Below, in pieces: positions 3,712 to 10,140 of a stretch of DNA of 64,000 bases. The position numbers were made by a program, and so were the translations under genes. This stretch comes from Planotetraspora silvatica. Its GTDB lineage: Bacteria > Actinomycetota > Actinomycetes > Streptosporangiales > Streptosporangiaceae. The notes beneath the pieces are model-generated. The model made no database searches, was not told where the DNA came from, and saw only the letters and a list, made by a program, of their open reading frames with translations. The stretch is taken from NCBI RefSeq assembly GCF_016863315.1, contig NZ_BOOQ01000013.1, forward strand, positions 1 to 64,000. The letters are read 5' to 3'. Each line of letters opens with the position of its first letter. Position 1 is the first letter of the stretch.

Positions 3712-5316
3712 TCAGAAGCCGGCGGTGATCCGGGTGAAGTCCCAGTCGTTCTGGGCGATGCCGCTGCAGTTGGAGACCACGCCGCCGCCCGGGCAACCGC
3801 GGTCACGGTTGACCGACCAGAAGGCGAGCCTGCCGAGCCCCTTCGACTTGGCGTAGTCGCGGATCTGGGTCCAGGTCGCCACCGAGGTCAGCTCCTGCTG
3901 GTCGGACAGGCCGTTCATGCCCGAGATGCCCATGTGCGCGTAGGCCTGGGCATCGGTCCAGCCCCAGGCTGTCTTGAGGGCGTTCTTCAGGCCTTCGGCC
4001 GCGTTCACGGTGTTCTGGTACATGTTCGCGCCGCCGCCGAAGTCGAACGGCATGATCGTGTAGTTGTCCACGTTGACGCCGAGCGCCTTCGACTGGTTGA
4101 TCAGGCGGGTGCCGTAGTAGGTCGGGCCCGTGGTGCTCGTGCCGAAGGTGATGACGACCTTGGTGTTCGGGTTGTTCTGCTTGATGATCTTCAGGCCGCC
4201 GAGGATGCGGTCCTGGACGGCCTCGTTCTCGAACTCGTCGCTGTTCTCGATGTCGAAGTCGACCGCGGCGGGGTTGTAGGCGTTGATGACCTGCTGGACG
4301 GCCCCGGCGAACGCGGACGACGACGAGCAGTTGGGCCCGAGCTTGTTGCCCGAGTAGCCGCCGAAGGAGATCTGCACGTTGCCGCCGGCGGCCTTGATCT
4401 GCGAGATCGCCGTGGCGTCGGCGCCGCCGGTCAGCGGGCGTGAGCTGTCCCAGGCGGGCGTGCATCCGCCGCCGGAGAGCATGAACGCCATGGTGAAGGC
4501 CTTGACGCCGGTGGCGTTCATGACCGTGGCCGGGCTCGGCGGGTTGCCCCAGCCCTCATAGAGGTACGGCGCGCCGGGCAGTTTGCCGCCACCGGTCGGA
4601 CAGCCCGTCGTGGTCGCGGTCGCCGCGCCGCTGGCGGCGGACTCACCCTGCCCGTTGTACGCCTTGACCGTGTAGGTGTGCGTGGTGCAGGTGCCCAGGC
4701 CGGAGATCGTGGCGCTCGTGCCGGTCACGGTCGCCCGTACGGTGGTGCCCTCATAGACCCGGTAGCCGGTGACGGTGCCGCTCGACGCTCCCCAGGACAG
4801 CGAGATCGACGCGTTGGCGGTGCCGGTGACCGTCGGGTTGCCCGGCTTGCCCGGAGCGCCCGCCGGCGGGGTCGGCGTGGGCGACGTGGTCGGACCGCCT
4901 CCGCCGCAGGAGGCGCCGTTCAGCGTGCAGTTGGCCGGTGCGGCGCCCGAACCGCCCGGGCTGCCGTTGAAGCCGAAGCTCGCCGTGCCGCCCGCCGGGA
5001 TGGTGCCGTTCCAGCCGAGGTTCGTGAAGGTGAAGTGCTGGCCGTTCCTGGTCATCGCGGCGTCCCAGACCGAGCCGACGCTGAATCCGGACGGCAGGTC
5101 GAACTCCACCCGCCAGGTGTTGATCGCCGACGACGTCCCGTTGGTGATCACATACTTGCCTTCGAAGCCGGTGCCCCAGTCCTGGGTCTTGGTGAACACC
5201 GCGGTGGCGGACGCCGCGTACGCGGGCGCGACGGCGACGATGCCGCCGACGATGGCGAGCGCCGCGGCGGCGATGACCGCACGGACGCGCAGGCCGGGGC
5301 CTGACCGTAGTTTCAT
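3712..5316 (-). CDS. secreted chitinase: CBM2 - FnIII - GH18
   Basis: The product (534 aa) hydrolyses chitin outside the cell. A signal peptide (about 1-34, ending AYA|AS) is followed by a CBM2 chitin/cellulose-binding domain (about 35-135, ending in a CTLNGASC element), a Thr/Pro linker, one fibronectin type III domain (about 155-245) and a GH18 barrel to the C-terminus. The catalytic segment is AVDFDIE; Glu near residue 358 is the proton donor, but the first Asp of DxxDxDxE is Ala here. Start chosen at ATG 5316 because GCGAGGAA lies just upstream. It is the last of four chitinase genes in one direction, 26 bases after the third, so the two are probably co-transcribed. Confidence 0.93.
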   Translation of the reverse strand: MKLRSGPGLRVRAVIAAAALAIVGGIVAVAPAYAASATAVFTKTQDWGTGFEGKYVITNGTSSAINTWRVEFDLPSGFSVGSVWDAAMTRNGQHFTFTNLGWNGTIPAGGTASFGFNGSPGGSGAAPANCTLNGASCGGGGPTTSPTPTPPAGAPGKPGNPTVTGTANASISLSWGASSGTVTGYRVYEGTTVRATVTGTSATISGLGTCTTHTYTVKAYNGQGESAASGAATATTTGCPTGGGKLPGAPYLYEGWGNPPSPATVMNATGVKAFTMAFMLSGGGCTPAWDSSRPLTGGADATAISQIKAAGGNVQISFGGYSGNKLGPNCSSSSAFAGAVQQVINAYNPAAVDFDIENSDEFENEAVQDRILGGLKIIKQNNPNTKVVITFGTSTTGPTYYGTRLINQSKALGVNVDNYTIMPFDFGGGANMYQNTVNAAEGLKNALKTAWGWTDAQAYAHMGISGMNGLSDQQELTSVATWTQIRDYAKSKGLGRLAFWSVNRDRGCPGGGVVSNCSGIAQNDWDFTRITAGF

Positions 5317-5342
5317 GGTTCCTCGCAGGGGGTCGGGGGGTG

Positions 5343-7025
<1,683 letters not shown>

Positions 7026-7046
7026 GAGACTCACTTTCCTGGCGAC

Positions 7047-7346
7047 CACCCCCCACCCCCCCTTCGCCGTGATCATGCACACCTTCGGAGAGAGTTCTGC
7101 TGACCTGGCAATTCACAATCCGTGATCATGCACACTTTCGGCGCCGGCCCGGCCGACCTGGGCGTTCGCCGTTCGTGATCATGCACGCCGGTCGAGCGTG
7201 CATGATCACGAACTGGGTTCCCGCAGGTCGTACGGCCTTCGGCCGAATCTGTGCATGATCACGATTGAGATTGCCGCTGGTCAGAACGGCTCCACCCGAA
7301 CCTGTGCATGATCACGCGCAAGGGGGGAGGGGGTGGGGGGAGGGGG
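7047..7346. repeat. mirror-symmetric 53-bp repeat array with flanking C- and G-tracts
   Basis: The intergenic space between two chitinase genes holds six copies of GTGATCATGCAC: three direct (7069, 7122, 7175) and three inverted (7198, 7251, 7304). Each set has an exact 53-bp period. The 41 bases between cores also align once the right half is reverse-complemented, with TTCGG (unit positions 16-20) and GACC (34-37) invariant in all four full units. The two centre copies form a perfect 18-bp stem (7171-7188 with 7196-7213) and a 7-base loop. A C-tract (7047-7062) lies at one end. At the other, 7322-7346 has four G-runs of 6, 5, 6 and 5 separated by single bases, a G-quadruplex motif. The whole region can fold on itself. 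Confidence 0.9.
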
Positions 7347-8780
7347 TCAGCCGGTGAAGGGTTTGAAGATGTTCGTGAACTCGTAGCTGGACTGGGCGAC
7401 GCCGCTGCAGGTGGGCGAGACGGTGCCGTTCGGGCAGCCGCCGTTGTCGCGGCCGACCGACCAGAACCCGATCCGGCCCACGTGGTTGGTCTGCGCGTAC
7501 GTCAGGAGCTTGCGGGCGTCGGCCTGGAAGGTGGTCTGGCCCGTGTCGTTCTTGCCGATCATCGGAGTGAGCCCGAGCAGCCGCTTGATCTGCGCGTCGG
7601 TCTTCGACGGCCAGATCTGCTTCATCTGCGTCACGGTCGCGTTCGCCGCGGAGACCATGGCGTCACCCCAGTTCCCGGAGAAGCCGAAGTCCATCAGCAT
7701 CGGGTTGACCATGACGTTGAGCCCCTTGGCCGCGGCGTCCTGGAGGATCTGCACCGAGAACGGGTCCATGCCGTAGTCCTGGCCGAGGACCCGCATCGTG
7801 TAGCTGATGGTGGTCCCGCGCTCGGTCTGGAGTTGCTTGAGCGCCGTGTTCACCTTGTTGACGTCGATCGAGGCCTCGATGTCGACGTCGAGGAAGTTGG
7901 TGCCGACCGTGTCGAGCACCTGCTTGTAGGCGGCGAGCAGCGCGGCCGAGGTGCCGCAGTTGTGCTCCAGGTACGGCCCGGCCGCTCCGCCGGTGGCGAC
8001 GATCACCTGGCCGCCCCTGGCCTGGAGAGCCTTGACGTCATTGATGATCCTTGAGTCGTTGACCGGGATCGTTCCGCCCCACGCAGGGTTGCAGCCGGTG
8101 CTGTCCCCGAGCGCGAACGCCAGCGTGTAGTTCTTCACCCCCGTCGCGTTGTATGCGCTGACCAGCGACGGCGTGGTCATCGTGATGTCGATGTACGGCG
8201 CGAAGGTGACGGCCCCCGGGTTCGGCGGCGGCCCCGTCGGCGTGGGTGTGGGGGTGGGAGTCGGCGTGGGTGTGGGAGTGGGCGTCGGCGTGGGCGGCAC
8301 CGAGCCCGGGCCGTCGAACACGATGTCGTCCGCGTAGTAGGTGCCCTGGCCGTACCAGCCGTTGACGTAGATCGTCACGCTGGTGGTGGAGGCCCCGGTG
8401 GTGAACGACGTGGACAACTGGGACCAGGCGGCGCCCGGCGCTCCCCAGGTCTCGGCGCTCACGCCGTTGCCGGTCGCGCCGAGGAAGACGTAGTTGCCGC
8501 GGACCCAGGACGACAGGGTGTACTTCGTCGACGGCTTGACGGTGATCGTCTGTTGGCAGCGGGCGTAGTCGCTCCCCGCGGGGGTGGCCGACAGCGCTTT
8601 CGTCCCTCCGTGCACGGGAGTGGAGACCGCCTGTGCCCCCGACGACCCCGAGCAGGTCCATCCGGTCAGGCCGGACTCGAATCCCGGGTTGGCCGCGATG
8701 TTCGCGGCGTACGCCGTGCCGGTCAGGAAGCCCACGAGTGCGACGGACGCCACGGCGCCCAGGGTGATGAGTTTCTTCAT
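7347..8780 (-). CDS. secreted chitinase: CBM4/9-like - PT linker - GH18
   Basis: A 477-residue exported chitinase: signal peptide (about 1-25, ending TAYA|A), a carbohydrate-binding domain beginning NIAANPGFESGLTGW (about 26-160), a (PT)n linker and a GH18 barrel with the segment LDVDIE (Glu near residue 302). The first Asp of DxxDxDxE is Asn. The binding domain is far more similar to that of the next chitinase (5343-7025) than the catalytic domains are to each other, which points to domain exchange. The start lies four bases after the stop of the preceding chitinase gene, so translation is probably coupled. Its stop abuts the G-tract of the mirror array. Confidence 0.93.
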   Translation of the reverse strand: MKKLITLGAVASVALVGFLTGTAYAANIAANPGFESGLTGWTCSGSSGAQAVSTPVHGGTKALSATPAGSDYARCQQTITVKPSTKYTLSSWVRGNYVFLGATGNGVSAETWGAPGAAWSQLSTSFTTGASTTSVTIYVNGWYGQGTYYADDIVFDGPGSVPPTPTPTPTPTPTPTPTPTPTGPPPNPGAVTFAPYIDITMTTPSLVSAYNATGVKNYTLAFALGDSTGCNPAWGGTIPVNDSRIINDVKALQARGGQVIVATGGAAGPYLEHNCGTSAALLAAYKQVLDTVGTNFLDVDIEASIDVNKVNTALKQLQTERGTTISYTMRVLGQDYGMDPFSVQILQDAAAKGLNVMVNPMLMDFGFSGNWGDAMVSAANATVTQMKQIWPSKTDAQIKRLLGLTPMIGKNDTGQTTFQADARKLLTYAQTNHVGRIGFWSVGRDNGGCPNGTVSPTCSGVAQSSYEFTNIFKPFTG

Positions 8781-8784
8781 GGCG

Positions 8785-10140
8785 TCATCCCGTGTACGAA
8801 GCGAAGATCTTGGAGAACTCGTAGGGCGACTGGGCGATGTTGGTGCACATGTAGAGCGCGCCGTTGCAGGCGTTGCGGTCCCGGGTCGTCTCCCAGAAGG
8901 CGAGCAGGCCGAGGTGCTTGCCCTTGGCGAAGGTCACGAGTTGCCGGGCGTCGTCCTGGTTGTAGATCCGGCCGTCGTCGTTTTGGCCGAGCATCGGCGT
9001 GACGCCGACCATGCGCCACACCTGGGCGTCGGTCAGGCTCGGGTACAGCGACTTGATCTGGGAGAACGTGCTGTTGGCCGCCTGGACCGCCGCGTCGCCG
9101 TAGTCGACCGGCTGGTAGTAGTCCATGGCCATCACGTTGACGACGTCGAGCTTGACGCCGGCGTCACGGGCGGACCTGACGACGTTCAGCCCGTCGGAGG
9201 TGAGTCCGTTCGGCAGGACCGGCAGGGTGAGCGAGATCTTCAGGTTGGGGTGGGCCTGCTGGAGCCGGGCGAGCGCCTGCGACCTGCGGGCGACCGATGC
9301 GGGCTCGGCCGTGGCCGCGCCCTCGATGTCGAGGTCGACGTAGTTCAGGCCGTACGCGTTGACCACGGCGTTGTACTCGTTGTACAGCGCGGTCACGTCG
9401 GTGCAGGCCTGGGCGAGCTCGATCCCGGTGGCGCCGCCGAAGGAGACCTTCACGTCACCGCCGCCGGCCCGGATCGCGTCGATCTGGTCCTTGCCCCACT
9501 GCTGCCTCGGGTCGTACGCGTTGAACCACATGGCCTTGCAGCTCGACGCGGTGACGAAGCCGAGCGTGAAGTTCTTCAGGCCGGAGGCCGATGCCATGGC
9601 GGTGAGGCTCGGGGTCGGCCAGGCGCCCATGTCCACGTACGGCGCGGTCCTGAGGTTCCCCGGGGACGGTGGTGTCGTCGGCGGCGGGGTGGGCGTGACC
9701 GTCGGCGTGGGAGTCGGCGTGGGAGTCGGCGTGGGAGTCGGCGTGGACCCCCCGCCTCCGCACGAAGCACCGTTGAGCTTGCAGTTCGCCGGGACGCCTG
9801 TGCCGGTGCTCACCCAGCCGAAGGCCGCGGAGGCTCCGGGGGCGAGGGTGCCGTTGTAGTCGCGGTTCTTGAACGAGTAGTGGTTGCCGGCCTTGGTCAG
9901 CAGCGCGTCCCAGTAGGAGCCGACCGACGACCCGGCCGGCAGGTCGAACTCGACCGTCCAGCCGGAGAGCGCGGCGCTCCCGGTGTTGGTGATCGTGTAT
10001 CTGGCCTGGTAGGCGGAGCCCCAGTCGGAGTCCTTGGAGAAGACGGCCGTGGCGGTGGCGGCCTGGGCGGGGAGGGCGACGAGGGCGAGCGCGACGGCGG
10101 CCACCGCCGCCAGCACACGCCAGATGAACCTGATCTGCAT
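8785..10140 (-). CDS. secreted chitinase: CBM2 - PT linker - GH18
   Basis: This is the first gene of the chitinase run. The 451-residue product has a signal peptide (1-27, ending AQA|A), a CBM2 domain (about 28-130, ending CKLNGASC), a (PT)n linker and a GH18 catalytic domain with YVDLDIEG (Glu near residue 273; the first Asp of the motif is Asn). The start ATG has AGAGG upstream. A perfect palindrome at 10292-10308, 152 bases upstream, is the candidate operator for this gene and the coupled downstream one. The CBM2 resembles that of the distal chitinase (3712-5316). Probable substrate: crystalline chitin. Confidence 0.93.
   Translation of the reverse strand: MQIRFIWRVLAAVAAVALALVALPAQAATATAVFSKDSDWGSAYQARYTITNTGSAALSGWTVEFDLPAGSSVGSYWDALLTKAGNHYSFKNRDYNGTLAPGASAAFGWVSTGTGVPANCKLNGASCGGGGSTPTPTPTPTPTPTPTVTPTPPPTTPPSPGNLRTAPYVDMGAWPTPSLTAMASASGLKNFTLGFVTASSCKAMWFNAYDPRQQWGKDQIDAIRAGGGDVKVSFGGATGIELAQACTDVTALYNEYNAVVNAYGLNYVDLDIEGAATAEPASVARRSQALARLQQAHPNLKISLTLPVLPNGLTSDGLNVVRSARDAGVKLDVVNVMAMDYYQPVDYGDAAVQAANSTFSQIKSLYPSLTDAQVWRMVGVTPMLGQNDDGRIYNQDDARQLVTFAKGKHLGLLAFWETTRDRNACNGALYMCTNIAQSPYEFSKIFASYTG

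Follow-up and report, generated by a model that had tools for sequence, protein, structure and literature searches.

The mirrored repeat array at 7046-7346 of the window, the 64,000-nucleotide stretch of Planotetraspora silvatica DNA analysed here, belongs to a family of arrays that is real, widely distributed in one genus and its close relatives and, judged by comparison between genomes, under selection. Our preferred reading, to which we give a probability of roughly 0.4, is that the arrays of this Planotetraspora-wide family are helically phased sites for a dedicated protein, which would form a directional transcription fence at the ends of genes.

In the window, the 12-mer GTGATCATGCAC is found exactly at 7069, 7122 and 7175 on the plus strand and at 7198, 7251 and 7304 on the minus strand, with the cores 53 bp apart in both halves. 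With one mismatch allowed, the window has 6 matches vs. 0.29 expected, and none of 100 shuffles reached 6. The plus arm begins with a C-rich, G-poor tract outside its first core (7046-7068) and continues with unit 1 (7069-7121; core at 7069-7080, then TTCGG and a GACCTG block), unit 2 (7122-7174; core at 7122-7133) and a terminal core that has no unit after it (7175-7186). The minus arm has the same parts: a C-tract (7316-7346), seen on the plus strand as G-runs of 6, 5, 6 and 5 that are one 13-mer occurring twice, unit 1 (7263-7315; core at 7304-7315), unit 2 (7210-7262; core at 7251-7262) and a terminal core (7198-7209). By eye, TTCGG and GACC are found in all four complete 53-bp units, and the two terminal cores build a central hairpin (7171-7213), with an 18-bp perfect stem between 7171-7188 and 7196-7213 and a loop of 7 nt. 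The initial annotation had described the six mirrored copies with their 53-bp spacing, the central stem and the C- or G-rich ends, and all of these are present in the sequence.

The array had also been placed between two chitinase genes of the same strand, which holds in part. Both neighbours lie on the minus strand, and the downstream gene (5343-7025, start codon uncertain) has Pfam matches to GH18 and CBM_4_9; the upstream gene (7347-8780) matches CBM_4_9 only, and its chitinase label is therefore by resemblance. The minus arm is in sense orientation, its C-tract right after the stop codon of the upstream gene, while the plus arm precedes the downstream gene and points away from it. The region 3712-10140 of the window is a chitinase-like cluster of four adjacent same-strand genes with carbohydrate-binding domains, with GH18 matches in three of the four, one under the Pfam cut-off.

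The array is not a one-off duplication. The P. silvatica genome (8.66 Mb) contains 698 exact copies of the 12-mer (360 + 338) vs. 0 of a reversed-pattern control, 203 + 174 pairs of them lie exactly 53 bp apart, and similar arrays recur in related genomes, the absence of which would, by the initial annotation, have pointed to such a duplication. We examined stretches of P. silvatica (400 kb, G000:C2:1-400000), another Planotetraspora genome (G104, 382 kb), Planotetraspora sp. A-T 1434 (G059, 400 kb; assigned to another genus, g59, in the genome collection), P. thailandica (G022, 400 kb) and G051 (320 kb), with genes called by a codon-usage script, so that gene starts are approximate. The P. 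silvatica stretch holds 13 arrays, which would give an estimated 280 or so genome-wide if they were evenly spread. In a logo of 60 P. silvatica units, chosen by the 12-mer with at most two mismatches, positions 1-10 and 12 are nearly invariant (GTGATCATGC.C), followed by TTCG at 16-19, YGACCWG at 33-39, a weaker AAC.C at 45-48 and a C at 53; G059 units have TTCC in place of TTCG. The alignments thus show a unit that recurs every 53 (sometimes 52) bp and consists of the fixed core GTGATCATGC, a few bases that differ between species, TTCG (or TTCC) and GACCWG.

Five helical turns at 10.5 bp amount to 52.5 bp. The five stretches, of which those of P. silvatica and G104 are orthologous and hence not independent, yielded 225 spacings of 40-66 bp between neighbouring exact cores: 192 are 53 bp and 24 are 52 bp, with four of 54, two of 51 and three elsewhere, in agreement with the earlier suggestion that the spacing is close to five turns. 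Arms with more than one core hold 2-5 of them, the last without a following unit.

The arrays are intergenic, as first proposed, and their arms lie at the edges of the gaps, by the gene ends: excluding G104, and array-free gaps below 60 bp, they are present in 20 of the 89 regions between convergent genes, in 41 of the 384 between tandem genes and in just 2 of the 153 between divergent genes. Two-armed arrays invariably face inward (27/27, plus 6/6 in G104, 33/33 in total, as counted by a script that leaves cores more than 230 bp apart unjoined). The 39 one-armed arrays comprise 27 that follow a gene 3′ end in sense and 12 that face a 5′ end; those in tandem gaps show a modest 3′-end preference (18 vs. 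10), the other two 5′-facing arrays being in divergent gaps. The first core often contains the stop codon (at distance -3 in 12 of 63 stop-side arms), and in four of the 63, at distance -34, the stop codon is the TGA of the second block. The 20 nt before the arms are C-rich and G-poor both on the stop side (C 0.53, G 0.21; 63 arms) and on the start side (C 0.49, G 0.23; 25 arms), and 60 of 93 arms have a run of at least four Cs within 30 nt before the first core, compared with 61/321, 53/297 and 43/254 (17-19%) at arm-free stop codons. The G-quadruplex ends noted in the window do not generalize, since four C-runs of at least three in the 40 nt before the arm were seen in only 15 of 93 arms. 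As side observations, G051:C1:178960-179715 and G022:C8:201565-202431 exemplify called genes that start within an innermost core (with a VIMQ... start) and genes with an array on either side.

This placement would equally suit a role in DNA topology. Some E. coli BIMEs are held to bind gyrase or a nucleoid protein and to absorb positive supercoils between convergent genes, and the arrays might do the same. The preference for convergent regions and 3′ gene ends, with avoidance of divergent regions, is consistent with such a role, as are phased multi-site arrays, which suit the wrapping of DNA. It leaves the inward arms without a reason, however, and an even spread along the chromosome, although not a strict prediction, is unsupported in four samples (P = 0.06, 0.06, 0.51 and 0.62). 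We consider this explanation doubtful, for a further reason given below with the spelling of the core.

The initial annotation saw one long cruciform or RNA fold in the window array, and the region 7040-7360 indeed folds very strongly (-208.6 kcal/mol vs. a shuffle mean of -132.7). If pairing were what selection keeps, facing units should match best in pairing register. At variable positions they do not: the match is 0.386 in register (n = 44) vs. 0.381 out of register (n = 76), which argues against a long hairpin or cruciform as the selected form; the two halves of the window array pair because they share one consensus. Units of different arrays match at 0.356 and same-arm neighbours at 0.469, the highest value, and tandem duplication therefore occurs. 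Within units, it is mostly neighbouring positions that share the strongest mutual information, and among the weaker distant couplings no nested run of pairing positions is apparent. Seven folded 53-base units, one of them the assembled consensus, gave z-scores of -2.4 to +1.0 and no shared hairpin, and a hairpin within the unit was likewise rejected. A search of 6900-7500 against Rfam gave no family, the sole hit at E ≤ 1 scoring 15.8 bits vs. a gathering score of 79.

The initial annotation had suggested a terminator or insulator, which is a possible role; an intrinsic bidirectional terminator would have a hairpin between convergent genes. Short hairpins made by the two innermost cores, like the one in the window, are present in part of the two-armed arrays, and many arrays have no central hairpin. 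At plus-to-minus junctions the 10-mer cores are 24 or 25 bp apart in 9 of 27 cases, the commonest class. Mean hairpin z-scores at 15 two-armed centres and at 29 one-armed ends are -0.53 and -0.40, compared with -0.09 at 85 outer flanks; a hairpin following the terminal core is clear in few arrays only and was rejected as a rule. Nor do the arrays clearly replace hairpin terminators. Strong hairpins occur in 5 of 20 convergent gaps with arrays vs. 22 of 79 without, and a comparison of mean hairpin excess between array and array-free gaps, a weak test, gave p = 0.044 (one-sided, pooled) with no single species of three reaching this alone; a comparison that included G104 leaned the same way. The lack of a clear replacement is in keeping with a topological role and counts against our own reading of the arrays as fences.

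An element acting in the 3′ untranslated RNA, either as a long hairpin or as an array of protein-binding RNA sites, would account for the strong fold of the window region, for the position of most arms in sense after a stop codon and for the stop codon within the first core. Two observations by eye are also in its favour: inverted-pair forms in other genera have long stems, and in one G059 array (114751) both innermost cores depart from the consensus in the same way. On the other side stand the lack of any advantage in pairing register, the neighbour-neighbour nature of most couplings and the 12 of 39 one-armed arrays that do not follow a gene 3′ end. Together with the inverted second block of G051, described below, these make an RNA element decidedly unlikely.

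Comparison with the second Planotetraspora genome, G104, shows that selection, so far as substitution patterns can tell, holds the core in place. Eleven of the 13 P. silvatica arrays are matched by order with G104 arrays and align at 82-97% identity; the other two fall, by offset, beyond the G104 contig. In 51 units, picked for having at most two mismatches in the P. silvatica core, positions 1-10 show substitutions at 4 of 502 sites (0.8%), as against 92/646 and 85/649 (13-14%) at spacer positions 20-32 and 40-52. Position 11 changed in 11 of 51 units, position 12 in 3 of 51 and positions 13-15 at 29 of 151 sites. Whole units have been gained or lost between the arrays of the two genomes.

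Other comparisons suggest that the arrays can also be lost. P. phitsanulokensis (G077) has 136 8-mer pairs at 53-bp spacing vs. 564-694 in four congeners, from which we conclude that the arrays are not essential. At the aroF-thiI gap (80 loci, five of them without aroF nearby), the four Planotetraspora loci among the remaining 75 carry arrays or remnants, and six others show one core with a mismatch. P. phitsanulokensis has only remnants here, yet its ThiI is closer to that of P. silvatica (96% identity) than is that of P. thailandica (90%), so that it seems to have lost arrays. The arms at aroF-thiI flank a central hairpin that has been kept, a similar one being visible by eye in the Microbispora corallina gap, and the array is therefore not the sole stop signal there. 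The G059 gap has some 900 bp of other sequence on the minus-arm side.

Hundreds of copies, growth by tandem duplication, a simple inverted-pair form in other genera and the few pairs in P. phitsanulokensis could all be explained by a selfish or historical repeat, a REP-like inverted element that was spread through the family and enlarged by unequal exchange, with no function for the host. The recent mobility raised in the initial annotation is not borne out, however, since all 11 arrays that could be compared were matched in the second species. No array matches were found in plasmid and phage records, and viral contigs gave three single pairs only, not arrays. The P. silvatica genome also lacks a match to the Y1 (RAYT-type) transposase. 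Old copies keep the core, the spacing and, at shared places, their species' own spelling, which disfavours a dead repeat; we regard this explanation as unlikely.

That spelling is the main reason for invoking a protein that reads the arrays. P. thailandica has only 1 + 1 pairs of the 12-mer at 53 bp and 353 + 341 pairs of the inner 8-mer, and its units read GTGATCATGCAGAAGTTCG. When units are chosen solely by their 10-mer core, position 12 holds a C in 53/53 P. silvatica, 52/53 G104 and 34/38 G059 units, and G in 53/54 P. thailandica units; position 14 is G in 37/53 P. silvatica units and A in 52/54 P. thailandica units. Of the five arrays in a 100-kb stretch of P. thailandica, four occupy the same orthologous gene gaps as P. 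silvatica arrays. At one shared locus, two units are clearly of common descent, differing at 7 and 4 of their 38 spacer positions and, within positions 11-15, at 2 and 4 of five. As positions 11 and 13-15 also drift within the P. silvatica lineage, a trans-acting reader is supported chiefly by the set-wide shift at position 12, and the difference in any single orthologous unit is, on these alignments, the weaker proof. A spelling that differs in step across a whole sister species suggests that a DNA-binding protein reads the arrays. For a general topoisomerase, a change of site spelling between sister species would be unexpected, and a role in supercoiling or nucleoid structure, which fits the location of the arrays just as well as a fence does, fits this species-wide spelling less well.

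Outside Planotetraspora, the family was followed with the 11-mer CGTGATCATGC in 120 family genomes. It is enriched in Planotetraspora genomes (320-974 copies) and in G059 (854), and also in G050 (230), G090 (178), G089 (158), G025 (124), G051 (56) and G048 (52), the rest having 1-39. Among 297 genomes of the order, 11 have 8-mer pairs, six of them 136-694 and the others 1-10: G119, G186 (Microbispora sp. H11081), G193 and G243, these four of genus g65, and G169. The 14-letter site is present in 170 of 345 class genomes, among the matches listed in 1-3 copies each except in P. silvatica; most of these listed matches are one recurring word, GTGATCATGCAGGACTTC, coding-like in appearance. Among 396 phylum genomes, the 8-mer pair was found in that of P. 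silvatica only.

Some loci in G089 and G025 are, by eye, simple inverted pairs with long stems, and a simple inverted pair, like those still seen in other genera of the family, was probably enlarged by tandem duplication into the inward pairs of Planotetraspora. In G051 the arrays have a 41-bp unit (13 of 17 same-strand spacings below 120 bp); both two-armed arrays face inward and most arrays have a C-tract. Their second block is turned around: of 14 units, 8 have CWGGTC and not one has GACCWG, whereas the ratio of GACCWG to CWGGTC is 33 to 2 in 56 P. silvatica units, 28 to 1 in 54 of G104, 20 to 1 in 59 of P. thailandica and 12 to 0 in 57 of G059. That a block can turn up in reverse complement fits naturally with double-stranded DNA but not with RNA, which also counts against the RNA element considered above. 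Our data thus point to double-stranded DNA sites read by a putative protein that would have co-evolved with them.

In G051:C1, by eye, the outermost core of four arrays (L266, L267, L272 and L273) reads GTGATCTTGC, with GTGATCATGC commoner among the inner cores; array position therefore has its own spelling. G050 has dense, irregular intergenic clusters with 11 (G050:C107 6379-7270) and 8 (G050:C124 200-735) exact cores, many of them then followed by a GTTGTTCG-like stretch, which adjoin genes for alanine dehydrogenase, glycerate kinase and molybdopterin enzymes. We looked for a cognate protein gene beside four G050 site clusters and rejected this candidate position, the eight neighbours being seven enzymes and one response regulator.

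We found no description of these arrays in the open-access literature searched, and compared them with known systems. As already noted in the initial annotation, they are not CRISPR-like: a CRISPR array has identical repeats in one direction with unrelated spacers, whereas here the spacers share TTCG and GACCWG and two-armed arrays are inverted. REP/BIME elements, as described in PMC2817692 and PMC3733652, resemble the arrays in their many extragenic, species-specific copies, often in opposite orientation, mostly downstream of genes and between convergent or same-direction genes. Their unit is a 20-40 bp palindrome in regularly spaced copies of alternating orientation, however, whereas ours is a 53-bp non-palindromic site in runs of one direction that invert once in two-armed arrays, with arms that are not paired by selection and a spacing near five helical turns. 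The arrays are thus nearest in form to REP/BIME, although three of the four defining features tested were absent. RAYT (Y1 transposase, PF01797) was sought in 12 genomes and gave no match in P. silvatica, G104, P. kaengkrachanensis (G125), P. phitsanulokensis or G059, with matches elsewhere in P. thailandica (4), G065 (10) and G119 (3); CGTC-type REPs lack a dedicated RAYT, according to PMC3733652.

In evolution, the arrays are nearest to the DNA uptake sequence dialects of the Neisseriaceae, in which, according to PMC3630211, a short genome-wide word has species-specific spellings. A signal of this kind for a competence receptor would explain one core with species-specific spellings and inverted pairs at gene ends. 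Uptake words are scattered singly and also within genes, however, whereas exact cores are phased and mostly lie inside arrays (71/75, 76/79, 110/128 and 65/73, with 0, 0, 5 and 3 of the rest in called genes), and strict 53-bp phasing has no role in uptake; this explanation is hardly credible. An ARG-box-like occurrence of the 12-mer in a Streptomyces ArgR paper (PMC5839063) was taken as chance.

Oriented protein sites that act from one side are known from Tus-Ter, RTP and the rDNA terminator boxes bound by TTF-I, the last being tandem and downstream of a gene. These systems serve few loci, whereas the arrays are at many. No match to Tus (PF05472) or RTP (PF02334) was found in the P. silvatica genome, the E. 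coli and B. subtilis controls being recovered, and RAYT, Tus and RTP were rejected as the cognate protein. Mycobacterial MIRU, too, are short tandem repeats between genes; some measure about 53 bp, and they can meet stop codons, but they occur at few loci and are not known to be mirrored; here both likeness and difference are of general description, not of sequence.

In the fence that we propose, several molecules of the putative protein would align on one face of an arm and, so aligned, would oppose from one direction an RNA polymerase leaving the gene, so that it does not enter the intergenic stretch or the gene opposite. Release of the stalled polymerase by Rho factor may be aided by the C-rich RNA transcribed immediately upstream of the fence. 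Besides the hairpins that are not clearly replaced, the kept hairpin at aroF-thiI and the few pairs in P. phitsanulokensis, further observations count against this reading or burden it. One-armed arrays that face 5′ ends (10) or lie in divergent gaps (2) need antisense transcription as a target for the fence. Five arms far from gene ends have no C-tract (C 0.32, G 0.32) and count against it. So does an array at G000:C2:87440-87792, whose neighbours, both on one strand, resemble by eye a solute-binding-protein gene and a permease gene; it may be inside an operon and recalls the REP element between malE and malF. The fullest form of the proposal, a dedicated fence system in which one fast-evolving putative protein makes two DNA contacts, assembles on phased arrays at the ends of hundreds of genes, marks intergenic regions inward from both edges and can change its site genome-wide within a genus, is one that we put forward tentatively, as possible rather than probable. 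It would parallel the uptake-signal dialects, where receptor and word differ together.

The arrays bear on how high-GC bacteria separate neighbouring genes. The 53-bp and 41-bp units, like the flipped second block, are natural variants for examining the mode of binding. Should a single protein read the arrays, actinobacteria would have in it a genome-wide boundary factor, and the differences between sister species would be a visible record of a protein and some 700 sites changing together.
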